Shown here: piece after piece, positions 1,535 through 17,381 of the stretch
Layout: each line of letters starts with the position of its first letter
Numbering within the stretch: position 1 is the stretch's first letter
Origin: a virus
IMG/VR virus record: IMGVR_UViG_3300010354_000779
Location: 1 to 21,938 of that record
DNA: 21,938 nt
Strand: one strand, 5' to 3'
The notes under the pieces: generated by a model
Seen by the model: the letters and a program-made list of their open reading frames with translations, nothing else
Database searches by the model: none
Told to the model about the DNA's origin: nothing
Translations under genes and position numbers: made by a program

Positions 1535-1819
1535 TTAGAGTGATGCAACCTGATTCATGACGCGAGTGACATCCTCAGGCAACAGCCATCCTACCACATC
1601 ATTGGTGATAGGAGTGTCATAATTGATACGCCACCCGCCTTTGTCATTAAACTTTACGACAGCAATCTCATAGAATCCTTGTTTGCCACCATAGGAACTA
1701 CTATGTTGCACAACAGACACACCATAACCATTATCAAATCGGCGTACTGCTTGTACACCATCCTGACAAGGATTGAATTCCAGTTCGTGAAAAGAATGCA
1801 TCAGAGAGTTAGTCATCAT
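1535..1819 (-). CDS. Conserved hypothetical protein, ~94 aa
   Basis: A compact beta-rich protein with the stretch VQAVRRFDNGYGVSVVQH, a pattern I associate with a small conserved cyanophage protein of unknown role. Two adjacent ATG codons (1819 and 1816) and another at 1801 are possible starts. I chose 1819, which overlaps the upstream stop by 11 bases; codons further upstream are not ATG. No membrane segment. Confidence 0.7.
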   Translation of the reverse strand: MMTNSLMHSFHELEFNPCQDGVQAVRRFDNGYGVSVVQHSSSYGGKQGFYEIAVVKFNDKGGWRINYDTPITNDVVGWLLPEDVTRVMNQVASL

Positions 1820-2261
1820 TGGAAGAGTCAACTGATAGTTGTGATAGTGTAGTATGAAGATTGAATTCTGTCAAGAACTCATCAAAGTTGAGAATGGTCA
1901 CATCAGGAGTATTTAACCACTGAGACATACAATTCTCTCGATAGCAATCATCATGTTTCCAACCAGGACCGGCAAGAACAATGATACCTTTTTTGTAATT
2001 GTAATGTTCTACTGCATGTTGCAAACAGATTTGTTCATATGGTATCTTCTCTTCTGCAGTACCAGCAACATCCTGATACTTGAGAGAAAGAATTGTGTCA
2101 TCATTGACAATCAAATCTGTATAGTGATTTCCACCAGTAGGGCGTACACCAATACAAATTTGCTCGTTCACATCATAATCTGCAAGATACAACAGATGTT
2201 CACAAAGGTATTCAAATGACTTACCAGTTTGGTCTGTCTGGCGAGAAGCATGTGTTGCCAT
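1809..2261 (-). CDS. Probable PD-(D/E)XK superfamily nuclease, 150 aa
   Basis: The core reads D49-L-I-V, then S59-L-K61-Y-Q, then the segment GTAEEKIPYE (67-76). This is the spacing of a PD-(D/E)XK active site (acidic residue, beta turn, [D/E/S]xK, then Q), with an upstream Glu (E17 or E21) as the helix-1 residue. The GTAEEKxPYE signature after the catalytic Lys is, from memory, typical of small restriction-like members of this fold. It may degrade host DNA or trim phage DNA. Motifs are seen; the nuclease assignment is inference. Confidence 0.6.
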   Translation of the reverse strand: MATHASRQTDQTGKSFEYLCEHLLYLADYDVNEQICIGVRPTGGNHYTDLIVNDDTILSLKYQDVAGTAEEKIPYEQICLQHAVEHYNYKKGIIVLAGPGWKHDDCYRENCMSQWLNTPDVTILNFDEFLTEFNLHTTLSQLSVDSSNDD

Positions 2262-2721: not shown

Positions 2722-2750
2722 AATATACATGAGCACAGCGGCAACCACAA
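2722..2750 (-). promoter_or_regulatory. Early-type sigma70 promoter P1
   Basis: On the minus strand: -35 TTGTGG (2745-2750), 17 bp, -10 TATATT (2722-2727), then AGCCATGTTGAGAGGAGG. The -10 and downstream block recur almost unchanged at three other promoters in this window. A 6-bp inverted repeat (2734-2739 with 2754-2759) brackets the -35. It drives the operon running from 2698 to the left edge. Confidence 0.75.
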
Positions 2751-2761
2751 GTGGCTGTGTG

Positions 2762-2777
2762 CCAGTTGTTCAACTGG
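2762..2777. repeat. 16-bp perfect palindrome upstream of P1
   Basis: The sequence CCAGTTGTTCAACTGG is its own reverse complement with no mismatch. It lies 12 bp upstream of the -35 of P1 and could be an operator for a dimeric protein or a small RNA stem. No matching copy was noticed at the other promoters. Confidence 0.5.
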
Positions 2778-2831
2778 GTCAGTTCATTACACTTTTGGTT
2801 TTTTCGTGTGTGAGACTGTCATGGGTGACCT

Positions 2832-2895
2832 AGAACCCGCTGAAGGCGAAATTGCAGGTTTTTTGCGTTTTGCCTTCAGTGGTGGACTGGGTTCT
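2832..2895 (-). other. Large two-stem inverted repeat after a stop codon
   Basis: Outer arms AGAACCC/GGGTTCT (2832-2838 with 2889-2895) enclose a 12-bp inner stem (2840-2851 with 2868-2879, CTGAAGGC paired with GCCTTCAG plus one G-T and three A-T pairs). It begins at the stop codon of the 80-residue gene. No U-run follows on the minus strand, so it is not a standard terminator; it could stabilise the 3' end of the mRNA or be a non-coding RNA. The stretch 2699-2894 otherwise holds only promoter P1 and the 16-bp palindrome. Confidence 0.55.
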
Positions 2896-3137
2896 CAGTT
2901 GATGCGCCAGACGCGAACGACCCATACGCCGTTCTCCAGCAATTTTCGAGTCTGAACTCTATAACCCTTACGCATGAGGCTTTCAGGGGGAGTTGGTCTA
3001 CTTTTGCCGGAATTCAATTCATGTAAAGGAACAGCAAATGAGTCGAGAATCATTAACTGTTCCCAAGGATACTTTGATGCTCCAACGGCACGAGCAGAAG
3101 ATGGAATTGGAATGTTCTTTTCAATAGTGTAAGTCAT
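2895..3137 (-). CDS. Conserved small phage protein, 80 aa
   Basis: Begins MTYTIEKNIPIPSSARAVGA, then KYPWEQLMILDSFAVP, and ends in VWVVRVWRIN. The layout IEKNIPIP, YPW..L..LDSF.VP, then R-G-rich region and RVWRI resembles a small family seen in marine phages (KYPF..M.VGDSFFVP type), possibly DNA-binding. Last gene of the operon from promoter P2; the large inverted repeat begins at its stop. The start overlaps the upstream stop as ATGA. Confidence 0.7.
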   Translation of the reverse strand: MTYTIEKNIPIPSSARAVGASKYPWEQLMILDSFAVPLHELNSGKSRPTPPESLMRKGYRVQTRKLLENGVWVVRVWRIN

Positions 3138-3301
3138 GATTCGGTAGATTCAGTAGATTCGACAGATTGAGTAGGGCGGCGACGCACCTCATAGGTATAA
3201 CTCCGAGTGAATGAGTAATAGAATACTACAAGCACACCGAGCAAACCAGCAACAGCAGCAACAGTGGTAACATCAACAGGAAATGAAGTAGTTTCAATCA
3301 T
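3134..3301 (-). CDS. Small single-pass membrane protein, 55 aa
   Basis: Residues 9-31 form a hydrophobic helix (VTTVAAVAGLLGVLVVFYY), followed by a basic stop-transfer (YEVRRRPTQ) and a repeated tail VESTESTES encoded by near-identical 9-base units. I chose the ATG at 3301, which overlaps the upstream stop by 8 bases; the frame is open further back but that would overlap much more of the 68-residue gene. Membrane location is inferred from hydrophobicity. Confidence 0.65.
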   Translation of the reverse strand: MIETTSFPVDVTTVAAVAGLLGVLVVFYYSFTRSYTYEVRRRPTQSVESTESTES

Positions 3302-3500
3302 TGAGATAATCCAAAGCAAGAGTAACGTATGCAGGTTCTTCGAAGAGTTCACGAAACTCAGCATAAATTGCATCTGCATTACGCAGATTCTTCATACGAG
3401 TTTCACGATACTTTGCACGTTCACCCAGACGTTCCAGGTATTTAATGCGATAGTATGAGTGATTGAAACACTCATCAATCGATTCAGCGATGGTCTTCAT
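3294..3500 (-). CDS. Hypothetical helical protein, 68 aa
   Basis: Starts MKTIAESIDECFNHSYYRIK, with charged amphipathic helices to the end (ELFEEPAYVTLALDYLND). No cysteine pair or membrane segment. The start ATG overlaps the stop of the basic 40-residue gene upstream as ATGA. Not recognised. Confidence 0.7.
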   Translation of the reverse strand: MKTIAESIDECFNHSYYRIKYLERLGERAKYRETRMKNLRNADAIYAEFRELFEEPAYVTLALDYLND

Positions 3501-3619
3501 TTGATGTTCAGTTGTAATTTCAAAGTTTGCAAAGACTGTTTTCGGGCTTTAATTTTGCCCTTACACATACCCTTGGTTTTCTTATTCTTACCAGAGTTGT
3601 GCATCCAGTTCGGAGTCAT
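3497..3619 (-). CDS. Very small basic protein, 40 aa
   Basis: Reads MTPNWMHNSGKNKKTKGMCK and continues with more lysines (KGKIKARKQ). Both ends overlap neighbours as ATGA, which is strong context support for so short a gene. The charge suggests nucleic-acid or ribosome contact, but this is inference. No family recognised. Confidence 0.6.
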   Translation of the reverse strand: MTPNWMHNSGKNKKTKGMCKGKIKARKQSLQTLKLQLNIK

Positions 3620-3879
3620 AGTTCACCTGCCTGATTGACAAAAGATTTAGCATCACATACAGTCTCGAAGTGAGCGATGTTTTCAGTGATGGTAGTAACA
3701 CTATTGTCGGCAATTTGAATCTCCTTCACCTTGCGAAGGTTATATCCACCTTCATCAATGTCAGTGAAGATTTCACCAATGTACTGACCATTCTGATAAA
3801 TCCATTCTTGATACCAAACGAGTTCTTTAAGATTACGTTCGTAAGTGATACCGTTGTTGTTATCAACGATGGTGGTCAT
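3616..3879 (-). CDS. Hypothetical protein, 87 aa, first gene after P2
   Basis: Begins MTTIVDNNNGITYERNLKEL and appears to be a small beta-sheet protein (QYIGEIFTDIDEGGYNLRKV). The frame extends upstream through the promoter itself, so I placed the start at the ATG at 3879, which has a good AAGGAG site nine bases ahead. It is the leading gene of the P2 operon. Function unknown. Confidence 0.7.
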   Translation of the reverse strand: MTTIVDNNNGITYERNLKELVWYQEWIYQNGQYIGEIFTDIDEGGYNLRKVKEIQIADNSVTTITENIAHFETVCDAKSFVNQAGEL

Positions 3880-3903
3880 TGGAAAACTCCTTTCAACATG
3901 GCT

Positions 3904-3932
3904 AATATACAGGAACACACCCATCAAGTCAA
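3904..3932 (-). promoter_or_regulatory. Early-type sigma70 promoter P2
   Basis: Minus strand: TTGACT (3927-3932), 17 bp, TATATT (3904-3909), then AGCCATGTTGA as at P1 and P3. It sits within a long inverted repeat (3914-3925 with 3943-3954, 12 bp with one G-T pair) whose loop contains a further GTCA/TGAC stem carrying the -35. It drives the genes from 3879 to 2895. Confidence 0.8.
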
Positions 3933-3954
3933 GTGGCTGACCGATGAGTGTGTT
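3914..3954. repeat. Long inverted repeat covering the -35 of P2
   Basis: Arms 3914-3925 and 3943-3954 match in 11 of 12 positions (the other is a G-T wobble in RNA). The 17-base interior holds a second short stem. There is no U-tract on the minus strand side, so an operator or RNA-processing role is more likely than termination for the minus-strand operon. Confidence 0.6.
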
Positions 3955-3984
3955 TTATCATTCAAATACGATGTATAAGTTTTA

Positions 3985-4320
3985 CTACTTCCACTTTTTA
4001 TACATCCAATACAAAGCACCAATAATCAATCCGCCAAGTATAATCCAGCGAAGTGCCCAGATTAACAGCAAAACTGCAACCAGAACAAATAATCCAAGAC
4101 CAGCACCAGCACTATCACTGGTGGACTCAAATAGTGTACCAGATGAAGAACTGGACTGAGATGGTTTGCTTAGAGGAACACATGTTTTAACCTCTTTGGC
4201 ACCATACATGGATTGAATCTGTGCAATAGCATCTTCTCTCCAAGGACCAGGAGTTTCAACCTCAACATTTTGCAATGCGTTGGATTGAGTTAGAATCAAT
4301 GCTTTCCAGTAATGAGTCAT
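3985..4320 (-). CDS. Two-helix membrane protein, 111 aa
   Basis: The soluble N-terminal half (residues 1-50, with PWREDAIAQIQSMYG) is followed by a Ser-rich linker (SKPSQSSSSSG) and two hydrophobic helices (about 74-90 and 92-106), ending in YKKWK. An Arg lies between the helices, suggesting a hairpin topology. It is the last gene of the P3 operon and ends just upstream of P2. The start overlaps the upstream stop as ATGA. No known family. Confidence 0.7.
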   Translation of the reverse strand: MTHYWKALILTQSNALQNVEVETPGPWREDAIAQIQSMYGAKEVKTCVPLSKPSQSSSSSGTLFESTSDSAGAGLGLFVLVAVLLLIWALRWIILGGLIIGALYWMYKKWK

Positions 4321-4490
4321 TTTACTCGGTGAATGATGCAGCGTTTAAACTCTTGCCACTCAGTATCAGAGAAGTTATCAGAAGCATAGGGAATCCCAAC
4401 CTCAGCAGCACACTGCTTTGCAATACTTTCAGGAACAGGAGTTTGTAGGAAATCATATTGTATCAGAGTGGCAAGAAGAATGGGTATCAA
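4317..4490 (-). CDS. Hypothetical protein with hydrophobic start, 57 aa, TTG start
   Basis: Uses TTG and reads (M)IPILLATLIQYDFLQTPVP, then a Cys-containing domain (AKQCAAEVGIPYAS) and ends KRCIIHRVK. GGAGG lies nine bases ahead of the TTG. The TTG overlaps the upstream TGA as TTGA, and the end overlaps the next start as ATGA. An alternative frame beginning at the ATG at 4456 translates to a low-complexity protein and is less convincing. A short export signal at the N-terminus is possible. Confidence 0.65.
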   Translation of the reverse strand: MIPILLATLIQYDFLQTPVPESIAKQCAAEVGIPYASDNFSDTEWQEFKRCIIHRVK

Positions 4491-4678
4491 TTGCTAGAAC
4501 CTCCACTATTCTTAAATACCATGTTTGCAAGGACAATGATAGCAAGATTCTGCCAGAATGTCAGTGACACATTAAACCAAGACAGAATAAGACCAAGCAA
4601 CCATGCTTCAAACAGAATACTTGCAGTTACCAGTACAATGGCAGCAGCAACAACACCAATAGCAGTAGAAGTTTTCAT
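4487..4678 (-). CDS. Two-helix membrane protein, 63 aa
   Basis: Starts MKTSTAIGVVAAAIVLVTAS; two hydrophobic stretches (about 5-33 and 41-54) and a short polar end (KNSGGSSN). The segment LSWFNVSLTFWQNLAIIVLA resembles small phage membrane proteins with a WFN..LTFWQ turn, from memory. It belongs to the P3 operon. Likely in the host inner membrane; role unknown. Confidence 0.7.
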   Translation of the reverse strand: MKTSTAIGVVAAAIVLVTASILFEAWLLGLILSWFNVSLTFWQNLAIIVLANMVFKNSGGSSN

Positions 4679-4681
4679 AGG

Positions 4682-5068
4682 TCAGACAGCAAGGGCAGCA
4701 GAGGAAATTTCGACAATTTCGGGAAGTTTGTTGTCATCAAACTGGTGCATATCATAACACACCCATTCACCATTACGAAAGACATATGCATATTCTTCAC
4801 TGTTTTCAGGAAGAAGATACTCACACAGGTCAGCATCAAGGCGAGGAGGGCAAATATCTCCACGCATAGAATAATACTCAGGTTTCTTATCTTCAGACCA
4901 GCAAACACTCATGTCGCCACCATCAATCAGTTCAGCAACTTGTTGATGAGTGTTGTAATGTGTACGAAGAATACGACCCAACCATTCAGGATAACCATCC
5001 CAATGATGATAGACAGAAAGAATACTTCCGTTCTTCAGTTCGATACCAATGCGAGAGCGAGTTGCCAT
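4682..5068 (-). CDS. Conserved phage protein (MATRSRIG family), 128 aa
   Basis: The N-terminus MATRSRIGIELKNGSILSVY followed by HHWDGYPEWLG and GDMSVC is a widespread phage protein of unknown function, recognised from the MATRSRI and (H/C)HWDGYP motifs. Length matches what I would expect. A second open frame inside it is a shadow. The start is unambiguous. It is in the P3 operon. Confidence 0.8.
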   Translation of the reverse strand: MATRSRIGIELKNGSILSVYHHWDGYPEWLGRILRTHYNTHQQVAELIDGGDMSVCWSEDKKPEYYSMRGDICPPRLDADLCEYLLPENSEEYAYVFRNGEWVCYDMHQFDDNKLPEIVEISSAALAV

Positions 5069-5070
5069 AA

Positions 5071-5343
5071 TCAGACGAGTTGGAGTTTAGGAGCAGGTTG
5101 AACAGTAAAAGTGAAACGTTTGGCGGTGATGGTGGCATTCTCTGTGCCAGACTCATCAATCACTTCCCACCAATCTTCACCATCTTCAATCACAACATAA
5201 CCGAAACAACCAGCGATACAGAGAGAATCAAGACCCTTACGAATAGCAGCACGTTTGGAATTGAATCGTTCTTTGCAGTTGTACCAACCGTTGCGTTCAA
5301 CGTCTTCAGCAGGACCAAAAGTGATGAGAAGATAGTCAGTCAT
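5071..5343 (-). CDS. Hypothetical protein, 90 aa
   Basis: Starts MTDYLLITFGPAEDVERNGW. The middle has CIAGCFGYVVIEDGEDWWEV, a beta-strand pair with two nearby cysteines (CxxxC), and the end is Lys/Pro rich. No family recognised. It lies between two other P3-operon genes with only two bases to each. Confidence 0.7.
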   Translation of the reverse strand: MTDYLLITFGPAEDVERNGWYNCKERFNSKRAAIRKGLDSLCIAGCFGYVVIEDGEDWWEVIDESGTENATITAKRFTFTVQPAPKLQLV

Positions 5344-5345
5344 GT

Positions 5346-5540
5346 TCAGAGAAGGCAGAAAGAACCACAGAAGTTTTGCGCCCAGTTGAGTGCTTCATCA
5401 AGAGGACGAGGATTACTCACAACCATTGAATTTCCCTCAACTTCAGCAACACAAATGTATTCTGATTTGAGGAGAGACATAGAAGGAACCAAGGTTAGCG
5501 TTCCCTGTTTCCCGTGTCCGGCGGTGTAGTGAAAAATCAT
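5346..5540 (-). CDS. Hypothetical protein, 64 aa, first gene after P3
   Basis: Starts MIFHYTAGHGKQGTLTLVPS. An AGAGGA ribosome site lies nine bases upstream, within the conserved promoter-leader block. Beta-rich and probably soluble, with two C-terminal cysteines (FCGSFCLL). It leads the operon that continues to 3985. Not recognised. Confidence 0.7.
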   Translation of the reverse strand: MIFHYTAGHGKQGTLTLVPSMSLLKSEYICVAEVEGNSMVVSNPRPLDEALNWAQNFCGSFCLL

Positions 5541-5563
5541 CGGGTGTTCCTCTCAACATGGCT

Positions 5564-5592
5564 AATATACATGAAATCTGGCCCCTACACAA
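5564..5592 (-). promoter_or_regulatory. Early-type sigma70 promoter P3
   Basis: Minus strand: TTGTGT (5587-5592), 17 bp, TATATT (5564-5569), then AGCCATGTTGAGAGGA. The upstream ACTGGCACA and the downstream leader are shared with P1, so the two look like copies of one cassette. The -35 begins on the last base of one stem arm and continues across the loop of the 8-bp hairpin at 5579-5599. Confidence 0.75.
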
Positions 5593-5599
5593 GGGGCCA
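5579..5599 (-). terminator. GC-rich hairpin after the helicase gene, overlapping P3
   Basis: Perfect 8-bp arms TGGCCCCT/AGGGGCCA around a 5-base loop, 25 bases after the helicase stop. The following run on the minus strand is only GATTTC, so termination would be weak. The same bases carry the -35 of P3, so it could equally be an operator. Function is inferred. Confidence 0.5.
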
Positions 5600-5623
5600 T
5601 GTGCCAGTTTCTAGACTGTCCCA

Positions 5624-6865
5624 TCAGGAACAGTAGGACAGGGGAGGAATCCCTTTAATGAAGATAGAATCCACAACAGATTGCAGACGTTGAGTAATCT
5701 GTTTCCCGTGATTCTTGTAGACAGGGACAGTCACAAAACCTGCAGGTTTGCGATACATTTGGAATGCACCTGCAGTAATCTTACCAGATGCAATATCTTG
5801 TGCATCCTCTACATCCATACGAATGACACGACCAATAGTTTGGGCCATCTCAACAATGTTAAGATTGCGAAGGAGAACACAGTGAGTCAAACCAGGGACA
5901 TTCATACCCTCGGAAAGAATAGAATAGTGGAACAGAACGAATTTCTTTGACTTATCCCGACCCCACTTATTCAGGACATCAAAGAATACCTCACGGTTCA
6001 CTTTGGTCTTGTTGACATATGCACCATACTTAGAAGTGATATGAAGTACATTGTACCCACGATTCTTGAACTGTTCGAGAATATCAGTCTGAGACAACAT
6101 ATTCCACAGAACCTTAGAAGAAGGTGCAGCAATCAGGAGTTTCTGAGATTTATCCTGTTCCAGATTGTCTACAATACCGATGACAGTATCTGCATCAGTG
6201 AATGCAGGATTGAGTTTGTTGCGTTCTGCATCAATCTCTGCAGTCACAACTTGAGGGGGAATGATAGAACCACCTTCAATCAGTTCCTGTGCAGGAACAA
6301 TCTCAATCTGTTTCCCATAGACAACATGGTTGTTCATTCCACGACCATATGGGTCACGAGAAACGCGAGGAGTTGCAGTAAAGAAATAAGCGTTATTTGC
6401 AATCTCAGATACAGATGCAACCGGCACAAAGAATGCACGACCACATGCATTGTGAGACTCATCAAAGTATGCAACATCAATATCAATACCAGAATCGACA
6501 ATACGATTCAGAGAATGATAGGTAGTGAAGATGATGCAAGACTCACCTGCAGCACGAGCAGTATTGTTGAACAGTGCAATCTGGTCAACTTTGGTAGAAC
6601 TGAAGTAATGAGTTTCACCACTGTGAACGTGCATGATGTGAACGTTCTTAGTGTCAACCATTTCCATAAACTCACTGCAAAGTTGATTTGCAAGGAGAAT
6701 ACGAGGTGCAACAACAACAAACGTACCAGACTGTTGTTGAAGACGACGAATCGTATCCATTATCATAATCAAAGTCTTACCACCACCAGTAGGGATGATG
6801 ATTTGACCTTTATCGTTCTGTGCAATCGCATCAAGAGCACGTTGTTGATGGGGTCGCAGTTGCAT
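5624..6865 (-). CDS. SF2 DNA/RNA helicase (DESH box, UvsW/RAD25-like), 413 aa
   Basis: All core superfamily-2 motifs are present: Walker A PTGGGKT (25-31), Ia VVVAPRILLANQ (50-61), DESH box (135-138), TATPR (163-167), motif V SEGMNVPG (318-325) and motif VI QTIGRVIR (342-349). This fits an ATP-dependent duplex-unwinding or branch-migrating enzyme of the SSL2/UvsW type, used in phage replication and recombination. It is shorter than T4 UvsW, so I give no symbol. The frame is open to a GTG at 6895, but that lies in the -10 of P4; MQLRPHQQ at 6865 is the start consistent with the promoter. It is the only gene of the P4 transcript. Confidence 0.9.
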   Translation of the reverse strand: MQLRPHQQRALDAIAQNDKGQIIIPTGGGKTLIMIMDTIRRLQQQSGTFVVVAPRILLANQLCSEFMEMVDTKNVHIMHVHSGETHYFSSTKVDQIALFNNTARAAGESCIIFTTYHSLNRIVDSGIDIDVAYFDESHNACGRAFFVPVASVSEIANNAYFFTATPRVSRDPYGRGMNNHVVYGKQIEIVPAQELIEGGSIIPPQVVTAEIDAERNKLNPAFTDADTVIGIVDNLEQDKSQKLLIAAPSSKVLWNMLSQTDILEQFKNRGYNVLHITSKYGAYVNKTKVNREVFFDVLNKWGRDKSKKFVLFHYSILSEGMNVPGLTHCVLLRNLNIVEMAQTIGRVIRMDVEDAQDIASGKITAGAFQMYRKPAGFVTVPVYKNHGKQITQRLQSVVDSIFIKGIPPLSYCS

Positions 6866-6886
6866 AACAAAACTATCAATGTGGCT

Positions 6887-6915
6887 AATATACACAAAAA
6901 GACTGGAGGTGTCAA
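6887..6915 (-). promoter_or_regulatory. Early-type sigma70 promoter P4 (consensus -35)
   Basis: Minus strand: TTGACA (6910-6915), 17 bp, TATATT (6887-6892), then AGCCACATTGA. This is the best match to a bacterial housekeeping promoter in the window. The -35 is exactly the loop of the terminator at 6896-6924. It drives the helicase gene. Confidence 0.85.
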
Positions 6916-6924
6916 CCCCCAGTC
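6896..6924 (-). terminator. Rho-independent terminator overlapping P4
   Basis: Minus strand: GACTGGGGG, loop TTGACA, CCTCCAGTC, then TTTTTG. The stem is 9 bp with one G/A mismatch and is followed by five T. It ends the 7358-6958 operon, 33 bases after its last stop codon, and its loop is the -35 of the next promoter. Confidence 0.85.
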
Positions 6925-6957
6925 GATTAGCATAACTTATTGTTCACGACTCAATGA

Positions 6958-7149
6958 TTAAAAAATATCATTTGGTTCACCCCAGTATCTTACTCTATCT
7001 TCCAAATTCATTGTGTAACGAATTAAAGCATCAATCTGAGACTGCATTCTATTCTCTATTTCATACAATGCATTTGTTGTTCCAATATTCTCATCTTCCA
7101 GAATTTTAAGTTTATCTTCTAGAAATCTAATTCTTTCTTGGTCTGTCAT
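6958..7149 (-). CDS. Coiled-coil protein, 63 aa
   Basis: Starts MTDQERIRFLEDKLKILEDE; residues 4-52 are a continuous heptad-like helix, and the end is YWGEPNDIF. A short oligomerising protein is likely. It is the last gene before the terminator at 6896-6924, and its start overlaps the upstream stop as ATGA. Confidence 0.7.
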   Translation of the reverse strand: MTDQERIRFLEDKLKILEDENIGTTNALYEIENRMQSQIDALIRYTMNLEDRVRYWGEPNDIF

Positions 7150-7358
7150 GATTCATTCAGGGGGTTGTCAGTTCTCCATCGTGTTGTATCTGGCGGTTCA
7201 CATTTAGCATTCCAAGAGCGAACCAGTAATTCAGTAAATAACTCCATTTTTTCAGGATGTACTGCTGCAGGATTCTGGTTAATCTGTTCTTTTAAGGCAA
7301 CTAACTCTTTCCATTCTTCATCGGTTAGATTAGCATTCTGGGGCAGAGAGTAAGTCAT
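7146..7358 (-). CDS. Hypothetical protein, 70 aa
   Basis: Starts MTYSLPQNANLTDEEWKELV; a helical N-terminal half and a short C-terminal half with CEPPDTTRW. No known domain. It is the first gene below the candidate promoter at 7383-7415 and is coupled by ATGA to the coiled-coil gene. Confidence 0.65.
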   Translation of the reverse strand: MTYSLPQNANLTDEEWKELVALKEQINQNPAAVHPEKMELFTELLVRSWNAKCEPPDTTRWRTDNPLNES

Positions 7359-7382
7359 GCGATAATTGTACTGTACATGGCT

Positions 7383-7415
7383 ATTTTATGTTGATTTCCT
7401 CAAAAAATGCATTTT
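7383..7415 (-). promoter_or_regulatory. Possible promoter P5 lacking a -35
   Basis: On the minus strand TAAAAT (7383-7388) is followed directly by AGCCATGT, the same downstream block as in P1-P3. No -35 match occurs at 16-18 bp; instead a perfect 12-bp palindrome AAAATGCATTTT (7404-7415) is centred there. It may be activator-dependent or decayed. The stretch 7359-7449 holds no gene. Confidence 0.35.
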
Positions 7416-7436
7416 CTTAATGTTGTCTTTTGATTG

Positions 7437-7455
7437 TTGTAACAAATTGTTACAA
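7437..7455. repeat. Perfect inverted repeat over a stop codon
   Basis: TTGTAACA, three bases, TGTTACAA. The arms are 8 bp and the repeat includes the stop codon of the 49-residue gene above. AT-rich and without a following U-run on the minus strand, so termination would be poor; a protein-binding site is possible. Confidence 0.5.
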
Positions 7456-7599
7456 TATACCAATGTGTCTTAAGTAACGTCTGTATGCATGAAATCTGCC
7501 AATACTAGGTTGGTCTTTAACGCCTAGTTGATGACAGATTTCACAATACATTAGAAACTCATACCATGGTGTAGTTGGGTCTAACACATGATAATTCAT
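7450..7599 (-). CDS. Small hypothetical protein, 49 aa
   Basis: Reads MNYHVLDPTTPWYEFLMYCE and ends YRRYLRHIGIL. It contains ICHQLGVKDQPS, reminiscent of a helix-turn-helix turn but too short to claim. The ATG overlaps the TGA of the 22-residue gene upstream. Last gene of a chain, ending in the palindrome at 7437. Confidence 0.6.
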   Translation of the reverse strand: MNYHVLDPTTPWYEFLMYCEICHQLGVKDQPSIGRFHAYRRYLRHIGIL

Positions 7600-7664
7600 T
7601 TTTTATATGGTTTCTTCACAGTATATGTATGCAAAGTACCAAAGATTTTAACGGTTTTTGTCAT
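7596..7664 (-). CDS. Micropeptide gene, 22 aa
   Basis: Reads MTKTVKIFGTLHTYTVKKPY then KK. A GGAG site lies six bases before the ATG, 12 bases after the upstream stop, and the end overlaps the next start as ATGA. These two signals make translation plausible for so short a frame. The peptide is basic; function unknown. Confidence 0.5.
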   Translation of the reverse strand: MTKTVKIFGTLHTYTVKKPYKK

Positions 7665-7676
7665 AGTAATCTCCAA

Positions 7677-7913
7677 TTAAAGTTTTCCGCCTACTGTTCC
7701 TTCGTATGTTGTGGTAGCAACCCAGCCTTCTTGTCTACCTTTTAGATAGAATCGTGTGCCATCAATACATTGTTGCTCAGTCATAGCAGTAACTAGTTCT
7801 TCACCGTCTTTTGCTGCACTGTGCCACAAACCATATTTTGTTTTGTATACACGAAATGTATCATCAATCCAGTCTACTTCAGTTATTTCTGGGTGTTCGT
7901 TTGGGAGGTTCAT
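7677..7913 (-). CDS. Hypothetical protein, 78 aa
   Basis: Starts MNLPNEHPEITEVDWIDDTF; beta-rich with FRVYKTKYGLWHSA and a second half GWVATTTYEGTVGGKL. No recognised family. The ATG overlaps the TGA of the membrane-protein gene upstream. Confidence 0.7.
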   Translation of the reverse strand: MNLPNEHPEITEVDWIDDTFRVYKTKYGLWHSAAKDGEELVTAMTEQQCIDGTRFYLKGRQEGWVATTTYEGTVGGKL

Positions 7914-8236
7914 TCAAATTCTCCAGTGCGATTTTTGATTGTTGCTGAGTGATAAATGCCCTCAACTCTGGTGTCTCTGTCCACTCCCAGATTGTTCCAT
8001 CTGACTGCTTGTATTGTCTCGGAATAGTTTGGATTTTCATAAATTTCAATGTTGATAATTTGTTTGTCGTTCCAGTGACGCATTACACCTGCTACAATAA
8101 AGCAGTTTGTCACAAGATAGGTTACAAAGATGACCGTGCGAATGATAGCAACTTTATCTGCTTCTGTATCACAATCACTTGCTTTTTGACCCAGTGATTT
8201 AGCCCACCAGCGCCACATCATTTTCATTTTCATCAT
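7910..8236 (-). CDS. Single-pass membrane protein, 108 aa
   Basis: Met/Trp-rich basic N-terminus, then one hydrophobic helix (about 29-52, IIRTVIFVTYLVTNCFIVAG) and a soluble C-terminal domain of about 55 residues. The motif EADKVAIIRT before the helix and MRHWND after it recall a small cyanophage membrane protein, from memory. The start ATG overlaps the upstream stop; the next ATG is only one codon later. Confidence 0.7.
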   Translation of the reverse strand: MMKMKMMWRWWAKSLGQKASDCDTEADKVAIIRTVIFVTYLVTNCFIVAGVMRHWNDKQIINIEIYENPNYSETIQAVRWNNLGVDRDTRVEGIYHSATIKNRTGEFE

Positions 8237-8625
8237 CGGCCGGTGACATCCTCATAATCTTGAATTTTACCACATTTAAAGTGAATACGCAAGCGAGGCC
8301 AATCTTCCCATTTGCCCTTCCAATTAGCAGGATACACTTCGATGTACCTTGTGATATAACATGGTTGATACCTACCATGCACACCTGTTGGTATCCATTC
8401 AAAGTTTAAAAATCCATGTTTACTATACCTAGGGTCATCCTCTTTAATTTCTTCAAATGTATGTGTACCATTGTAACTTGGATACCACAATAGACCATTG
8501 GGGTCTAACCAATAGTCTGTCATTGTGCCGCCAATACCATCTTCAATGTCTTTAGTTTGGCACACTACATTTGTAAACTGCTCACCCAAATCGTAGGATG
8601 AACGAAAGTAATCAAACATTCCCAT
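8233..8625 (-). CDS. Conserved phage protein (MGMFDY family), 130 aa
   Basis: Starts MGMFDYFRSSYDLGEQFTNV and has QTKDIEDGIGGTM. The MGMFDYxRSSYDLG start and TKDIEDG segment are, from memory, common to many cyanophage and other phage hypothetical proteins. Likely a soluble beta protein. It overlaps the thioredoxin-like gene by 14 bases. Function unknown. Confidence 0.75.
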   Translation of the reverse strand: MGMFDYFRSSYDLGEQFTNVVCQTKDIEDGIGGTMTDYWLDPNGLLWYPSYNGTHTFEEIKEDDPRYSKHGFLNFEWIPTGVHGRYQPCYITRYIEVYPANWKGKWEDWPRLRIHFKCGKIQDYEDVTGR

Positions 8626-8887
8626 GTTTCTCTACCGTAGCCCTCCAGAAATCAGTTGTCATGTTATTCGACCCTTCAACTTTAGCAACCACCACACCAT
8701 CAACCAAGGCAATCAAAGTTGGTGTTGCAACCACACCACAATCAGTAGCAAACTGAGTCCACTGTTTGCCCTCTTTAGCATTAGTGATGGTGACAACATT
8801 CTCCCATCCTTCTACCTTATTCAGTTGTGTCTCTGCATACATGCAGGGTCTACATCCTTCCTGCACGAATAAGTGAATCTCGGTCAT
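8612..8887 (-). CDS. Thioredoxin/glutaredoxin-like protein, 91 aa
   Basis: Thioredoxin fold with active site C12-R-P-C15 directly after the first strand (IHLFVQEG) and a cis-Pro loop (V-A-T55-P56-T). The length suits a small thioredoxin/glutaredoxin. Such phage proteins usually supply electrons to ribonucleotide reductase, but no reductase gene is in this window. I use the internal ATG at 8887, with a GAGGGAAG site and an ATGA overlap, rather than the ATG at 8902. Confidence 0.85.
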   Translation of the reverse strand: MTEIHLFVQEGCRPCMYAETQLNKVEGWENVVTITNAKEGKQWTQFATDCGVVATPTLIALVDGVVVAKVEGSNNMTTDFWRATVEKHGNV

Positions 8888-9195
8888 ACTTCCCTCTCCC
8901 ATGGTGGTACTCTTTCCATTAGTTTACGAATTTTTTCCTGTACTTCTGGGTCTGGTGGTGCATTAATGCGTCTCACAAGTTCATCATATGCTTCTGCAGA
9001 CACATATATCTTTTCTGGTTTTGCACCAAAGTACGTCAACCATTTATCATCTTCTATCATCTGTGTCTGACCTTCATTAATACTATTCCAGAAGTCTTGA
9101 TACAGGAAATTATCATCAAGACGATAATCACGATGATTAATTAGACGATACCAACACCAGAATGGCGTATACCTAATTGGTTTAAATCCAATTAT
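8884..9195 (-). CDS. Conserved phage protein with antitoxin-like C-terminus; start uncertain
   Basis: The part I trust as coding begins at about IGFKPIRYTPFWCWYRLI and ends with VSAEAYDELVRRI...PPDPEV...LMERVPPWE. That tail fits the C-terminal pattern of DUF1778/TacA antitoxins (hydrophobic helix, PP.P, L..L, PWE). The preceding WLTYFGAKPEKIYVS is also well formed. In frame, ATGs occur at 9345 and 9312, which would overlap the 59-residue gene by more than 100 bases, and at 9060 with an AAGG site, which would discard 45 good residues. An ATA (9195) or ATT (9192) sits just after the upstream stop and may be the real start. Confidence 0.6.
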   Translation of the reverse strand: MIGFKPIRYTPFWCWYRLINHRDYRLDDNFLYQDFWNSINEGQTQMIEDDKWLTYFGAKPEKIYVSAEAYDELVRRINAPPDPEVQEKIRKLMERVPPWEREV

Positions 9196-9199
9196 AGTC

Positions 9200-9379
9200 T
9201 TATTTACGTTTCTTTCTATCGAGTACCTCAATGTGTCTAAGGTATCCGGCAGGTGCTTGAATCCATCTAGCAAGGACTTCATCATAGTGTTCATAAACTT
9301 CACATTTGCCATTTGTATATAATAATTTATACTTGTGTCTGTCATATGGTTTATGACAAGTTCTTGCAAAGGTTTCCAT
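9200..9379 (-). CDS. Small conserved-looking protein, 59 aa
   Basis: Reads METFARTCHKPYDRHKYKLL, then YTNGKCEVYEHYDEVLARW and ends in a basic tail (VLDRKKRK). The pattern YKL.Y..G..EVY..YDE...RW.Q.PA..L.H.EVLD looks like a small cyanophage protein. It starts inside TAATG, overlapping the stop of the upstream gene. It competes with the 5' extension of the next frame for the same DNA, and I find this reading more protein-like. Confidence 0.65.
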   Translation of the reverse strand: METFARTCHKPYDRHKYKLLYTNGKCEVYEHYDEVLARWIQAPAGYLRHIEVLDRKKRK

Positions 9380-9468
9380 TACTTTTTAAGACTCCAAAGG
9401 AATAACCACAACCATACTTCAATGATAACAAACACTGTTATTTCTACAACAACTGGTGGTAAATTCAT
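9379..9468 (-). CDS. Tiny membrane peptide, 29 aa
   Basis: Sequence begins MNLPPVVVEITVFVIIEVWL and continues hydrophobic to SLKK: a single transmembrane helix with a basic end. ATGA overlap at its start and TAATG at its stop place it firmly in the operon. Function unknown; comparable to other tiny membrane proteins here. Confidence 0.6.
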   Translation of the reverse strand: MNLPPVVVEITVFVIIEVWLWLFLWSLKK

Positions 9469-9725
9469 CGTCTATACCTTTCCAAATTGCGTGGGGCAGA
9501 TGTGAGAAAATCCCAGCGAATCTCAAACCATTTCCATCGAAATGAGAATCCTGTGAGTGAGCGACTACCGAAACTAATCAACAGCATTGGGAATAGTTCA
9601 GTAGCAGGATATTCATCCCACTGAATAACAACATCCATCAATGCGAAATGTGGATATGACGAGAGCACTTGGAGATACCATTCGTGCCCGTAATCTTCGT
9701 AGTGTGATATATCAATTAGTTTCAT
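9465..9725 (-). CDS. Hypothetical protein, 86 aa
   Basis: Starts MKLIDISHYEDYGHEWYLQV. Aromatic-rich and beta-like (GFSFRWKWFEIRWDFL), with a basic end (NLERYRR). I use the ATG at 9725 because it overlaps the upstream stop as ATGA. No family recognised. Confidence 0.7.
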   Translation of the reverse strand: MKLIDISHYEDYGHEWYLQVLSSYPHFALMDVVIQWDEYPATELFPMLLISFGSRSLTGFSFRWKWFEIRWDFLTSAPRNLERYRR

Positions 9726-10036
9726 CCTACTACTCTCCAACATACAGTAGCATTACCTTTACGAGTAGATTGAATATGAGCGAATGCAGAATAACTTAAG
9801 TCTAGGTCTGCATGAGAATAAGGTCCACGGTCATTCACACGAACAATTACCTGTTTCATATTATCTTGATTTGTCACCCGAATCCTCGTGCCCATAGGAA
9901 GATAAGGATGAGCTGCAGTCCAACGATAAGCATTAAACCGTTCACCATTAGCGGTCGTTTGTCCATGAAATCCGTCTCCTACTCCATAGAAAGTTGCAAT
10001 ACCACAAGTCAGTCCAGCAATAATAGTTGCAATCAT
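9722..10036 (-). CDS. RlpA-like double-psi beta-barrel protein, 104 aa
   Basis: A short hydrophobic N-terminus (MIATIIAGLTCG) precedes GIATFYG, then TANGERFN, AAHPYLPMGTRIRV and VNDRGPY (D69). These are the hallmarks of the RlpA family, whose Asp in the V.DRGP(F/Y) motif is catalytic in lytic transglycosylases. It probably acts on peptidoglycan in the periplasm, at lysis or during infection; the N-terminus suggests export. Domain length is near minimal for the family and there is no SPOR domain. The start overlaps the upstream stop as ATGA. Confidence 0.85.
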   Translation of the reverse strand: MIATIIAGLTCGIATFYGVGDGFHGQTTANGERFNAYRWTAAHPYLPMGTRIRVTNQDNMKQVIVRVNDRGPYSHADLDLSYSAFAHIQSTRKGNATVCWRVVG

Positions 10037-10215
10037 GATGATTCGTTAGAATAATACACTTTAAGATTGTCTCCACTAATATTCATATGGTAGATTTTTC
10101 CATCATTTGTATAGATACCAATCCACACATGACGACCTTCTTCCATAGTTTCATAATGAAACATTCTGATGTCTTCCAGAACAATCTCGTCTGGATTTTT
10201 CTCAAATCTGCTCAT
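10033..10215 (-). CDS. Hypothetical protein, 60 aa
   Basis: Starts MSRFEKNPDEIVLEDIRMFH, with a beta-strand pair (VWIGIYTNDGKIYHMNIS). Its stop overlaps the start of the RlpA-like gene, and its own start overlaps the upstream stop as ATGA. Not recognised. Confidence 0.65.
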   Translation of the reverse strand: MSRFEKNPDEIVLEDIRMFHYETMEEGRHVWIGIYTNDGKIYHMNISGDNLKVYYSNESS

Positions 10216-10382
10216 AGTAACTGGTGTTTCATTCCCATTAGTTTACCATAGATTTTGGCATAAAACAAGTTGGTGAATGCATCGTTGTCTTCTCGTAACA
10301 TTTCACCTTTAACCAATGCCATTAATGTTTCAATCTCCATGATGCCGAGGTCTGCATCTACATTATGTTCAGTGATTTCCAT
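10212..10382 (-). CDS. Small helical protein, 56 aa
   Basis: Reads MEITEHNVDADLGIMEIETL, ends LMGMKHQLL; Met-rich and helical. Its start overlaps the upstream TAA (TAATG) and its stop overlaps the next ATG (ATGA), so both ends are fixed by coupling. Function unknown. Confidence 0.65.
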   Translation of the reverse strand: MEITEHNVDADLGIMEIETLMALVKGEMLREDNDAFTNLFYAKIYGKLMGMKHQLL

Positions 10383-10810
10383 TATGCTACACCATCAGCA
10401 CTATCTTTGAATTCTTGTACTCTTTTCAGATACTCATCACTCTGTTGATACAATCGTGCAATCAAATCCTTGATGTCATCAATCGCAATCGCATCATACT
10501 CCACATTCATATTCTCGCAAATGAGAGCATCAACCATACATTCAAGTGTCATTGCTTGCATATGTTCTGGTGTGATTGGTGTCCCGTGAGGCATACCAGA
10601 ACATTCTTCATTATAGAAGTGATTATATCGTCGAAGAACAGTATCACTTCGTTCCTTGCGTTCCCATTCTTCTTTTTCAATTGCCGCAAGTTGTTTTAGA
10701 GCATCACCATTCTCTTTGTAGAGTTTTTCAACAGCATCAAGTGCCTTGCGTTCTGCTTCCCTACGTTCTGCTTCCTCAAACATTTCATCAGGATACGGTT
10801 CACAGTCCAT
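10382..10810 (-). CDS. Hypothetical coiled-coil protein, 142 aa
   Basis: A highly charged N-terminal helix (EEAERREAERKALDAVEKLY) is followed by a middle part with CSGMPHGTPITPEHM and an acidic C-terminal helix region. Soluble and probably oligomeric. The ATG at 10810 overlaps the previous gene by 11 bases. No known family. Confidence 0.7.
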   Translation of the reverse strand: MDCEPYPDEMFEEAERREAERKALDAVEKLYKENGDALKQLAAIEKEEWERKERSDTVLRRYNHFYNEECSGMPHGTPITPEHMQAMTLECMVDALICENMNVEYDAIAIDDIKDLIARLYQQSDEYLKRVQEFKDSADGVA

Positions 10811-11093
10811 GTACTACCTCAAAACATACTGAATTAAATTTACCTTTGATGCCTCTAAGTTCTATTTTTGTGTGTTGAGAATGTATATGCACATGCTCAA
10901 CATAATATTTGTCGCCCACAAATAAATGGGGATTGGGGTCATCATTGTTACCCCATTGAATTTGTTCCCTAGAACAACCAAGAAACTTTACAGTATCTCC
11001 TGCTTTGATTCTATCCATATCTCTTGCAGCCCACCCTAAATTTGGCCAAGTATCTCTATATATTTCGTTTAACTTGGCATTGTTGTAAAACAT
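10800..11093 (-). CDS. Hypothetical SH3-like protein, 97 aa
   Basis: An N-terminal helix with WPNLGWAARDMDRI leads into a beta-barrel-like part: AGDTVKFLG, YYVEHVHIH, TKIELRGI, FNSVCFEVV. This strand spacing suggests a small SH3-type barrel. Function unknown. The ATG overlaps the upstream TAA as TAATG. Confidence 0.65.
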   Translation of the reverse strand: MFYNNAKLNEIYRDTWPNLGWAARDMDRIKAGDTVKFLGCSREQIQWGNNDDPNPHLFVGDKYYVEHVHIHSQHTKIELRGIKGKFNSVCFEVVHGL

Positions 11094-11254
11094 TAGGTTG
11101 GTTGTTCTTGTTTCTGAACATATACAGAATCAAACAATTCATCTAAGATTTCATTGCATTCATGATACTCATCACTGTTCAGAATTGTCTTTTCAAGTTG
11201 ATAACGTCGAACAGAATTGAAAATGAGTTTGTATTGTTTATGCGTGAAGTTCAT
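11093..11254 (-). CDS. Hypothetical protein, 53 aa
   Basis: Starts MNFTHKQYKLIFNSVRRYQL; helical, acidic towards the end (CNEILDELFDSVYV). I chose the ATG at 11254; one further upstream would overlap the previous gene by about 50 bases. Not recognised. Confidence 0.6.
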   Translation of the reverse strand: MNFTHKQYKLIFNSVRRYQLEKTILNSDEYHECNEILDELFDSVYVQKQEQPT

Positions 11255-11450
11255 AGGTCGGTGGATGATACTTAAGATACTCAAAGAAAGTTAGTTTCAT
11301 CTCTTTCTGCGTCATACCACAATGTTTTGCTGCAGCAGGAAGAGTCATTTTAGCATGAAAGAGACCTTCATTTGCCTCTTTCACATTCTCGGGAGTTGTT
11401 TTCACAGGAATCTCATAGAGTGAATATCTGTCAATTTTAAGAAGACTCAT
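11238..11450 (-). CDS. Small protein with possible helix-turn-helix, 70 aa
   Basis: Residues 35-56 (MTLPAAAKHCGMTQKEMKLT) have the pattern of a helix-turn-helix: A-A-K-x-C-G-M-T in the turn and a second helix with KEMK. The end is YHPPTYELHA. Such a small protein could bind the phage or host DNA, perhaps near the repeated promoters; this is inference. The start at 11450 overlaps the upstream stop as TAATG. Confidence 0.65.
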   Translation of the reverse strand: MSLLKIDRYSLYEIPVKTTPENVKEANEGLFHAKMTLPAAAKHCGMTQKEMKLTFFEYLKYHPPTYELHA

Positions 11451-11632
11451 TAATCTGATGCCCTCCAAGCTTTTGTTGGTTTGGTTGATTGATAGTCTTC
11501 AATCATTTCCAGAATGCTATGAGAAACTTTTTTTGCTTCTTCATCATTCCATTGTTCACCATTTACACCATCCTCCCAGAAATTAAAGAGTTCGGTTGCA
11601 ATACTATCAATAAGAATATCGTAGCGTGTCAT
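11450..11632 (-). CDS. Hypothetical protein, 60 aa
   Basis: Starts MTRYDILIDSIATELFNFWE; acidic helical. A second ATG at 11665 lies in the U-run of the terminator just upstream, so I prefer 11632. No clear ribosome site or promoter is visible between the terminator and the start. Function unknown. Confidence 0.6.
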   Translation of the reverse strand: MTRYDILIDSIATELFNFWEDGVNGEQWNDEEAKKVSHSILEMIEDYQSTKPTKAWRASD

Positions 11633-11663
11633 TTTAAGGTGGTTATTGAAAAGAAGTGTGTTC

Positions 11664-11691
11664 ATAATAAAAAGACTCCCAGAGGAGTCTT
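11664..11691 (-). terminator. Rho-independent terminator
   Basis: Minus strand: AAGACTCC, loop TCTG, GGAGTCTT, then TTTATTAT. Perfect 8-bp stem with a following U-rich run, four bases beyond the stop of the KTSC-like gene. It closes the operon that starts at promoter P6. Confidence 0.85.
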
Positions 11692-11695
11692 AGAG

Positions 11696-11959
11696 TCAAG
11701 AAATAGGTTCGAGAACGTTATCTTTACGAAGTCGATTAACATATCGACCAATAGAAACAGTGGTGTCACCAGATTCTGCAGCAGTATTTTGCTCCAGCAT
11801 TTCAGTTTTTATTTGATTGTAATCACCATTCACAGTGTAAAAATACACTTCATCACTTGATGCGAATTGAAGTCCAATCTCGTTTGATTCATTGTCAAAA
11901 TAAAGATTGTTCACACAAGTAGAACTTTCAGTCGAAATGCACTCAAGAAGTTTAGTCAT
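11696..11959 (-). CDS. KTSC-like domain protein, 87 aa
   Basis: The order S-S-T..V..LYFD...NEIGLQF, then DEVYFYTV, and later SIGRYVN matches the layout of the small KTSC domain (beta strands around Y.Y.V with a terminal I...Y). Phage KTSC proteins have no settled role. It is the last gene before the terminator at 11664-11691. The match is partial and made by eye. Confidence 0.6.
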   Translation of the reverse strand: MTKLLECISTESSTCVNNLYFDNESNEIGLQFASSDEVYFYTVNGDYNQIKTEMLEQNTAAESGDTTVSIGRYVNRLRKDNVLEPIS

Positions 11960-11971
11960 AATTTTAAAGAA

Positions 11972-12151
11972 TCAGTAATCGTAATCGTCGTCAAAGTCTG
12001 CGTCGGTGTTTCGATTCCAACGTTTCATTCCAGAAATTTTATACTTCTGAAATCCCTCATCATATTCTAGGTCTTGAAGTTTGGTTTGTTGCTTCAACTC
12101 AGAAAGAGTAGAGTTGGTAGACTTGTTGAATTTACGATAGGAACGGGCCAT
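11972..12151 (-). CDS. Small basic/acidic protein, 59 aa
   Basis: Basic N-terminus (MARSYRKFNKSTNSTLSELK) and a strongly acidic C-terminus (DADFDDDYDY). It lies 12 bases below the 50-residue gene and 12 bases above the KTSC-like gene, with no larger competing frame. Function unknown. Confidence 0.6.
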   Translation of the reverse strand: MARSYRKFNKSTNSTLSELKQQTKLQDLEYDEGFQKYKISGMKRWNRNTDADFDDDYDY

Positions 12152-12163
12152 GTTTTTTGAGAA

Positions 12164-12316
12164 TTAGTCAGCGTAATCGAAGGTGTACTCGTAGTCTTCA
12201 GAGGCATCATCATAGCAATCATAATCAACCTCATCATTATAGCGATAAAATTTGTCTAGACGAATTTCATCTCGAATCTGGTCAATTATGGAACAATGGT
12301 AATCCAGGTAAGGCAT
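12164..12316 (-). CDS. Hypothetical acidic protein, 50 aa, first gene after P6
   Basis: Starts MPYLDYHCSIIDQIRDEIRL and ends in an extremely acidic, Tyr-rich tail (SEDYEYTFDYAD). The frame is open to 12385, but that region is the promoter P6; the ATG at 12316 has AGAGGAT eight bases ahead. The acidic tail could mimic DNA or contact a polymerase, which is speculation. Confidence 0.65.
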   Translation of the reverse strand: MPYLDYHCSIIDQIRDEIRLDKFYRYNDEVDYDCYDDASEDYEYTFDYAD

Positions 12317-12343
12317 GATTGAATCCTCTTGGAAACTCTGGCT

Positions 12344-12372
12344 ATAATATAGGCAGTTTTCCAAAAAGTCAA
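12344..12372 (-). promoter_or_regulatory. Early-type sigma70 promoter P6
   Basis: Minus strand: TTGACT (12367-12372), 17 bp, TATTAT (12344-12349), directly followed by AGCCA, as in P1-P4. No clear dyad covers this -35. It drives the three-gene operon ending at the terminator near 11680. Confidence 0.75.
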
Positions 12373-13802: not shown

Positions 13803-14975
13803 TTATATCTCCGCAGAAAAAAGTATATCGTTAAGAAGTAAAAAATAAGATACTCCAGCACTCATTCCACTTGCAACTGAACAATCTAAAGATATCATAT
13901 TGCCAACCATAGAATACGCCGAAATACTAGTTACAAATCCAAGATTACTTAACGCAAATGTATAAATTTGAGGACTAGTTATTGATGTTATATTTGGAGT
14001 AGTCCTCATTTGAACGGGTGTGTGTAATGTGGAAAAACCTCTGGTTCCTGTATAAGCTCCAAGAACTAGTCCCCAAGGACTGTTTTGTGTTCCTGTTTGA
14101 TATCTTATAGCATATCTTTGGCACAATGCAAGTTCTTGAGAATATGTTCTATATTCAAATGGAGTTAACGTAGCACCCATTTCCCATTGAACTCCAGAGA
14201 TAAACACATCATTATTTACTGTGTCCATAAATGTAGTTCCAGTTCTTATATCACATCTTTGATTATTTACTGCATTTTTCCAGTTTGATGTATTGAGAGT
14301 TCCACCTGTATATGCGGAACCAGAAGCTAACCAAAAATTAAAATAACCTGCACTATTAACCCCATCACCCATTGATGTCAAATAATTTGGAGGCAATACA
14401 ACATAATATCTTTGCCAAGTACTTGTTAGTAAAAATGATTTAGAAATTTGAGCTCCATTGTATGAATAATATTCAAAAGTTAAAGTATAACCAGGAATTG
14501 TTGACCTTGCATAAAAACTTACAGTGCTAAAAGCCGCAGCTTGGTTTCCCCACCTAAGTACTCTTAAATCTCTTTGTTCTAATTGAGTATACAATAGCAA
14601 ATATTGGCCAGCTGCAAATGAAGTATCAGTTCCAGTACATCTGACTCGTATAGCATTTTTTAAACCAGCCGGACAATCTCCAGATATTGTTGAGGTTTGA
14701 ACTGTTCCATCTGTTTGATTATCTATTTTCCATCTGTCAGCTGTAACTACTGCAGTTGCGTTGGCTGCAATAGATTGAGTATTTCCACCATTTCTCTGGT
14801 CAACTAAAAAATCTCCATTGATAATGAAATTTTTTCTTCCGGCGCCAGTAACAGCAAAAACTTCTTCTGGTGTATTTGCCGCCATTACAGACTGACCAGT
14901 AATACCAACTGGTCTTTCTAATTCAGAAAGCTTTTCTCGTATGTTAATTGGTGGCCTTGAAATATTTACTGGCAT
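13803..14975 (-). CDS. Tail fibre or other receptor-binding structural protein, 390 aa
   Basis: The N-terminus has ISRPPINIREKL and LERPVGITGQSVMAANTPEE, then GRKNFIINGDF(L)VDQRN (46-62), followed by a jelly-roll-like carbohydrate-binding part, and GVQWEMGATLTPFEYR with ELALCQRY (about 263-288). These are typical of phage fibre proteins with a trimerising or sugar-binding head. A GGAG site precedes the ATG within the tail of the upstream gene. Confidence 0.75.
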   Translation of the reverse strand: MPVNISRPPINIREKLSELERPVGITGQSVMAANTPEEVFAVTGAGRKNFIINGDFLVDQRNGGNTQSIAANATAVVTADRWKIDNQTDGTVQTSTISGDCPAGLKNAIRVRCTGTDTSFAAGQYLLLYTQLEQRDLRVLRWGNQAAAFSTVSFYARSTIPGYTLTFEYYSYNGAQISKSFLLTSTWQRYYVVLPPNYLTSMGDGVNSAGYFNFWLASGSAYTGGTLNTSNWKNAVNNQRCDIRTGTTFMDTVNNDVFISGVQWEMGATLTPFEYRTYSQELALCQRYAIRYQTGTQNSPWGLVLGAYTGTRGFSTLHTPVQMRTTPNITSITSPQIYTFALSNLGFVTSISAYSMVGNMISLDCSVASGMSAGVSYFLLLNDILFSAEI

Positions 14976-14976
14976 T

Positions 14977-17349: not shown

Positions 17350-17369
17350 GTCTTACTTTCTCTCTAAGA

Positions 17370-17376
17370 TATTTAG
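17370..17376 (-). promoter_or_regulatory. CTAAATA motif, possible late promoter
   Basis: CTAAATA on the minus strand, 20 bases ahead of the 790-residue fibre gene. It resembles the T4 late-promoter core TATAAATA with a changed first part, and recurs before two other tail genes here. Confidence 0.4.
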
Positions 17377-17381
17377 ATTGT

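Follow-up and report, generated by a model that had tools for sequence, protein, structure and literature searches.

Four similar promoter-like sites lie on the minus strand of a 21,938-base IMG/VR virus record (IMGVR_UViG_3300010354_000779; hereafter the window, meaning the whole stretch analysed). Our analysis suggested, with a probability of about 0.7, that they repeat a single transcription-unit cassette, set between genes of a T4-like cyanophage and composed of a promoter, a leader, a ribosome-binding site and an upstream module of one of two kinds. The layout of the cassette, its fixed spacings, the two upstream kinds and the spread of an upstream dyad through the family were read from the sequence. 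Such a unit would measure about 80 bp, from the stop codon of one gene to the start codon of the next, and would comprise the upstream module, the -10 hexamer TATATT, the discriminator RGCCAT and a leader with its Shine-Dalgarno sequence (GTTGAGAGGAACACC). The -10 and the discriminator would be what host RNA polymerase recognises, and transcription would begin close to the G of ATGTTGA, a position chosen from the usual distance between -10 and +1, giving a leader of about 16-20 nt. In the first upstream kind, a TTGAC -35 would be enclosed by a hairpin, in some copies accompanied by a T-run, and the unit may also end the previous transcript, as in promoter-early stem-loop (PeSL) cassettes. In the second kind, the majority, there is no good -35, and a dyad at a fixed distance would bind a dimeric activator standing in for it. 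Start point, activator, termination and early timing are the parts of this scheme that we infer.

Four probable cassettes in the window

The first-pass annotation of the window had listed five promoters and a sixth site without a -35 as one family, and four of the six were borne out. TATATT-AGCC-A(T/C)(G/A)TTGA was found on the minus strand at 2722, 3904, 5564 and 6887, as it had reported, and in each case a TTG-type hexamer precedes it at a distance of exactly 17 bp. The family 17-mer, TATATT-AGCCAYRTTGA, occupies 2711-2727, 3893-3909, 5553-5569 and 6876-6892. With up to three mismatches allowed, five matches (four exact) were found in the window, compared with 0.40 expected per shuffled window. 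On the minus strand, AGCC directly followed TANNNT six times (0.33 expected) and followed 4 of 12 TATATT hexamers. The TTG-type -35 was present at all four sites, but not at full strength at 2722 and 5564, which are weak sigma70 promoters because their -35s (TTGTGG and TTGTGT) match the consensus at only 3/6 positions. The sites at 6887 and 3904 matched the sigma70 consensus at 11/12 and 10/12 positions, respectively; both have a good -35 and no dyad. Two upstream features had gone unreported: hairpins around the -35, and dyads 51 bp 5' of the -10 at 2722 and 5564.

Neither the ATGTTGA block nor the hairpin nor the dyad is present at the remaining two sites, 12344 and 7383, and we did not keep them in the family. 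From its sequence, the site at 12344 can be at best an ordinary promoter for the open reading frame (ORF) starting at 12318. The features are as follows.

Cassette 1
2722-2727, minus: -10 TATATT, predicted to drive the ORF at 2522-2698
2745-2750, minus: weak -35 TTGTGG, 17-bp spacer, 3/6 consensus positions
2711-2721, minus: conserved block AGCCATGTTGA (putative discriminator and leader start), then Shine-Dalgarno GAGAGGAGG and a TTG start at 2698 inferred from the ORF list
2761-2778, minus: dyad CCCAGTTGAACAACTGGC, 11/12, beginning 51 bp upstream of the -10
2732-2763, minus: predicted hairpin spanning the -35, weak and not significant (z -0.7)
Cassette 2
3904-3909, minus: -10 TATATT, predicted to drive the ORF at 3616-3879
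3927-3932, minus: -35 TTGACT, 17-bp spacer
3893-3903, minus: conserved block AGCCATGTTGA, then Shine-Dalgarno AAAGGAG and ATG at 3879
3914-3954, minus: strong predicted hairpin enclosing the -35 (z -5.0), with neither T-run nor dyad
Cassette 3
5564-5569, minus: -10 TATATT, predicted to drive the ORF at 5346-5540 and the genes after it
5587-5592, minus: weak -35 TTGTGT, 17-bp spacer
5553-5563, minus: conserved block AGCCATGTTGA, then GAGAGGAACACCCG and ATG at 5540
5579-5599, minus: terminator-like hairpin TGGCCCC(TTGTGTA)GGGGCCA whose loop contains the -35 (z -3.2)
5603-5620, minus: dyad GACAGTCTAGAAACTGGC, 12/12, beginning 51 bp upstream of the -10 and directly past the helicase stop codon
Cassette 4
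6887-6892, minus: -10 TATATT, predicted to drive the UvsW-like helicase
6910-6915, minus: consensus -35 TTGACA, 17-bp spacer
6876-6886, minus: conserved block, variant AGCCACATTGA; ATG at 6865
6901-6924, minus: intrinsic-terminator-like hairpin GACTGGGGGTTGACACCTCCAGTC followed by TTTTT, TTGACA at its tip (z -3.8)
Other sites
5624-6865, minus: UvsW-like DNA helicase, served by cassette 4; its end meets cassette 3
12344-12372, minus: TTGACT-17-TATTAT-AGCCAGAG, ordinary promoter-like, non-member
7383-7388, minus: TAAAAT-AGCCATGTACA without -35, non-member

Two repeats lie near these sites. A long interrupted inverted repeat, GAACCC..CTGAAGGC / GCCTTCAG..GGGTTC, spans 2833-2894 between the preceding ORF and cassette 1, and an Rfam search gave no match for it. 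A perfect 8-bp palindrome, TTGTAACA-AAT-TGTTACAA, occupies 7437-7455, about 60 bp upstream of the -10-like site at 7383.

The block and the cassette layout in relatives

The exact motif was found in 67 IMG/VR stretches, and matches to a relaxed pattern in IMG/VR are to be read as a lower bound. With the relaxed motif, 4 to 6 copies were counted in each of the isolates S-T4, S-CAM9, S-8S53 and S-PRM1; among 12 other Kyanoviridae isolates, 10 have none and 2 have a single one-mismatch match. The promoter family noticed by the first-pass annotation is thus conserved past the -10 and outside the window, and the refuting result that it had named, a lack of the motif in relatives, did not occur.

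We collected 165 distinct copies from IMG/VR and the isolates. In 147 of them an ORF begins 20-38 nt downstream of the first -10 base, mostly with ATG and most often at 28-31 nt. The stop codon of the preceding gene lies mostly at -60 to -40 relative to the -10, and the median intergenic gap is 70 nt with a cassette compared with 2 nt without one; upstream genes were called by a crude longest-ORF rule, so that single assignments are uncertain. These positions and gaps indicate that the cassette fills the gene boundary. Conservation spans -53 to +28, with variable spacer positions from -2 to -12 and a fixed G at -1. Part of the apparent conservation of positions 0-16 is ascertainment, since the search seed set them. 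A scan seeded on the leader and Shine-Dalgarno sequence alone, which lifts this bias only for the -10 and the discriminator, recovered TATATT at the expected offset in 34/41 distinct matches and RGCCATG in most. K-mer enrichment upstream of ORFs was uninformative outside the contigs that carry the cassette.

The first-pass annotation had suggested an extra function for the block past the -10. AGCCAT can be read as a discriminator and the GTTGAGAGGAACACC after it as a short 5' leader containing a Shine-Dalgarno sequence, as judged from sequence and position. A special role for most of the block was not upheld: with ORF starts concentrated 28-31 nt past the first -10 base, most of it has an ordinary role. 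A reading of the block ATG as the start of an upstream ORF was rejected, as starts at 28, 29, 30 and 31 nt are all common and no frame is kept. Alternatively, the AGCC-ATGTTGA block could be a regulator site or a leader RNA element in its own right. Its very strong conservation would agree with this, as would the retention of RGCC even where the -10 becomes TATCTT. Against it stand the seeding of positions 0-16, the failure of Rfam to find any match in the window, and the occurrence of unrelated leaders with the same dyad in other lineages, and we regard such a role as quite improbable. Any extra regulatory element is more likely to lie upstream, in the hairpins and the dyad.

Two kinds of upstream module

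We divided 129 clean cassettes of the RGCCATGTTGA-block family by the presence of TTG at the -35 position (33 with, 96 without). The TTG class has the consensus CCCCTTGACC..GGGG..TTTT and a hairpin with z -2.2 (control near 0). In the window, a stem-loop is joined with the promoter at three of the four sites (5564, 6887 and 3904; z -3.2 to -5.0), and the fourth, 2722, is not significant. A terminator scan of the window found 5 candidates compared with 3.5 in shuffles, with the T-run at 6887. Strict stem-loop patterns matched only at control level in a first family-wide scan, and an ungapped covariation analysis over all column pairs was smeared by indels.

What the class without TTG shows instead, some 50 bp ahead of the -10, is an 18-bp dyad of the form GMCAGT-N6-ACTGKC. 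A dyad scoring at least 10/12 was present in 96/129 cassettes and in 8/516 control segments. The spacer is 6 in 90 copies and 7 in 6, and with one exception the dyad starts at -52 to -49. Within this family, a dyad and a TTGAC almost never occur in one copy (Fisher p 1e-9, a nominal value because the copies share ancestry).

The dyad could also be an RNA hairpin, as a terminator or the 3' end of the preceding mRNA, rather than a protein site. It overlaps the stop region of the preceding gene, and the dyad class has a small folding advantage over shuffles (z about -1). However, the variable bases of the two halves (A/C left, G/T right) are complementary in 27/61 copies compared with 31 in shuffles, that is, without covariation. 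Moreover, the N6 spacing and the distance to the -10 are rigid, and no T-run follows the dyad. We therefore consider an RNA hairpin very unlikely. Because the halves do not covary and the spacing is rigid, the evidence favours a putative dimer-binding DNA site: by sequence, the dyad would resemble an operator rather than an RNA stem. Its centre lies about 53 bp before the inferred start, a distance that would suit an activator.

The dyad in other cyanophages and in hosts

With one mismatch allowed, 19 cyanophage genomes contained 160 dyads compared with 17 matches to a reversed-pattern control. T4, RB49, KVP40, HTVC008M and Ma-LMM01 together had 3 dyads and 3 reversed-pattern matches, that is, no enrichment. 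In isolates such as P-RSM4 and S-SSM5, a -10 lies 49-50 bp after the dyad with a gene just beyond. An independent IMG/VR scan seeded on the dyad only placed the -10 at offsets 49, 50 and 51 in 10, 26 and 24 cases, compared with about one at each other offset. The RGCCATGTTGA block occurred in 0/53 distinct promoters of this set. Across all sequence fetched, 796 dyad promoters fell into leader families, several with a -10 variant of their own, such as TATCAT-ACATGTATGAAAAATCAA; this set came from greedy clustering of a biased sample at a looser dyad cut-off, and its counts are not abundances. As judged from these sequences, the block is one of many lineage-specific leader types sharing the dyad. 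Another widespread leader, ACTTCAGTTCAAACAAA, is found after dyad promoters of S-T4 (NC_048049; 4276 and 116694) and at the IMG/VR loci L317, L339 and L349; in S-T4 it shares the genome with the leader GCCATGTTGA. Locus L295, on a contig assigned to Flavobacteriales bacterium TMED113, carries dyad promoters typical of Prochlorococcus phages and is probably phage sequence binned with a bacterium.

In 257 gigabases of bacterial and archaeal genomes, the long dyad matched 24 times, compared with about 15 estimated by chance. Six of the 24 matches were in cyanobacteria and none in marine Synechococcus or Prochlorococcus. A host regulon for the dyad is unlikely, as genome matches are near chance and none falls in these marine hosts. 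This suggests a phage factor, which, should the genes truly be early, would have to arrive in the virion or be the first to be produced. We tentatively propose, as a possibility we rate below even, that Kyanoviridae cyanophages use a dimeric activator, phage-borne or virion-delivered and with no regulon in the marine host, which would bind GMCAGT-N6-ACTGKC and replace the -35, each lineage having its own -10, discriminator and leader block.

Several observations weigh against the cassette and activator as proposed. A T-run is present in only 21/129 copies, which makes termination doubtful for most of them. The window copies at 2722 and 5564 carry a dyad and a weak TTG -35 together. Since 13/53 dyad-seeded promoters outside the block family have TTG at 17 bp, the exclusivity of dyad and -35 is local to that family. 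The slight folding of the dyad class noted above counts in the same direction. Finally, no candidate binding protein was found; an annotated 'transcriptional regulator' of S-T4 had no Pfam match.

The sites could instead be plain host-sigma70 early promoters whose block is kept only because the cassettes are recent, mutually recombining duplicates. Leader pairs at least 70% identical make up 13% within a contig compared with 3% between contigs, and spacers 4% compared with 0%. Contigs carry up to 11 copies, on one strand; in the larger contigs all copies share a strand and are mostly clustered. Conservation is nevertheless uneven, with a varying spacer between the fixed block, dyad and G at -1, and the distance from dyad to -10 is fixed within 3 bp in genera whose leaders are unrelated. 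We regard this explanation as unlikely and retain the cassette.

Neighbour conservation also bore on how the cassettes move. At equal downstream-gene identity, the upstream neighbour was conserved in 2, 13 and 44% at cassette junctions compared with 11, 25 and 52% elsewhere. Given the upstream gene, the downstream neighbour was conserved in 26, 57 and 83% compared with 10, 25 and 47%. The pairs are not independent, and the comparison is suggestive only; cassettes seem to move together with the gene that follows them.

Genes of the window

The UvsW-like helicase, the clearest gene near the promoter sites, matched 418 records from T4-like phages of Synechococcus and Prochlorococcus at 40-66% identity. 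Because of these matches, the window is taken to be a T4-like cyanophage (Kyanoviridae) fragment. About half of the tested window proteins near cassettes had no PHROG match. A 150-amino-acid ORF at 1809-2261 (minus) matched a PD-(D/E)XK nuclease domain (PF20472, E 6e-10). The other half of the window codes for repetitive, fibre-like proteins; these ORFs (13803-21908, minus) have segments in common, such as GLLIEE(S/T)RTN and LIGTxxNQVPTxGMLGGMA, which suggests internal duplication.

Comparison with known systems

A novel regulatory element of Syn9 early genes, conserved among T4-like cyanophages, was reportedly described by Doron in 2016. In Syn9, at 44777 and 49081, we found dyads followed 50 bp on by a -10. 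We rate it as more likely than not that the dyad is this element, and make no claim of novelty for it.

The MotA box of T4 middle promoters lies at about -30 and is not a dyad. The likeness to our cassettes is a factor site in place of the -35 beside a normal -10. Cyanomyoviruses are described as having no motA and asiA homologues in a 2010 review, which also called the mechanism of early and middle transcription in T4-like cyanophages unclear (PMC2984593). Sigma70-like promoters upstream of S-PM2 and Syn9 early genes, reviewed there, have the same -10 type and a proposed use of unmodified host polymerase, but the review passages on them mention no fixed downstream block or dyad. Cyanobacterial promoters often have no -35 consensus (PMC3219970).

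We found no description of the block, the two upstream designs or the leader families in the literature, in a search that did not include the defining PeSL and Syn9 transcriptome papers. The rigid architecture of dyad and -10, common to genera of very abundant marine viruses, could serve as DNA bait for the factor and offers a simple rule to annotate cyanophage transcription units.

PeSL cassettes are known from T4-like phages (Arbiol 2010 and Comeau 2014, cited through PMC4503421); in the cyanophage S-PM2 they are too few to explain its gene gains (PMC4503421). By its sequence, our hairpin class appears to resemble them. Both are composites of an early-type promoter and a stem-loop, repeated between small variable genes of one region, whereas most cyanophage copies have no T-run and no -35 and carry the dyad instead.

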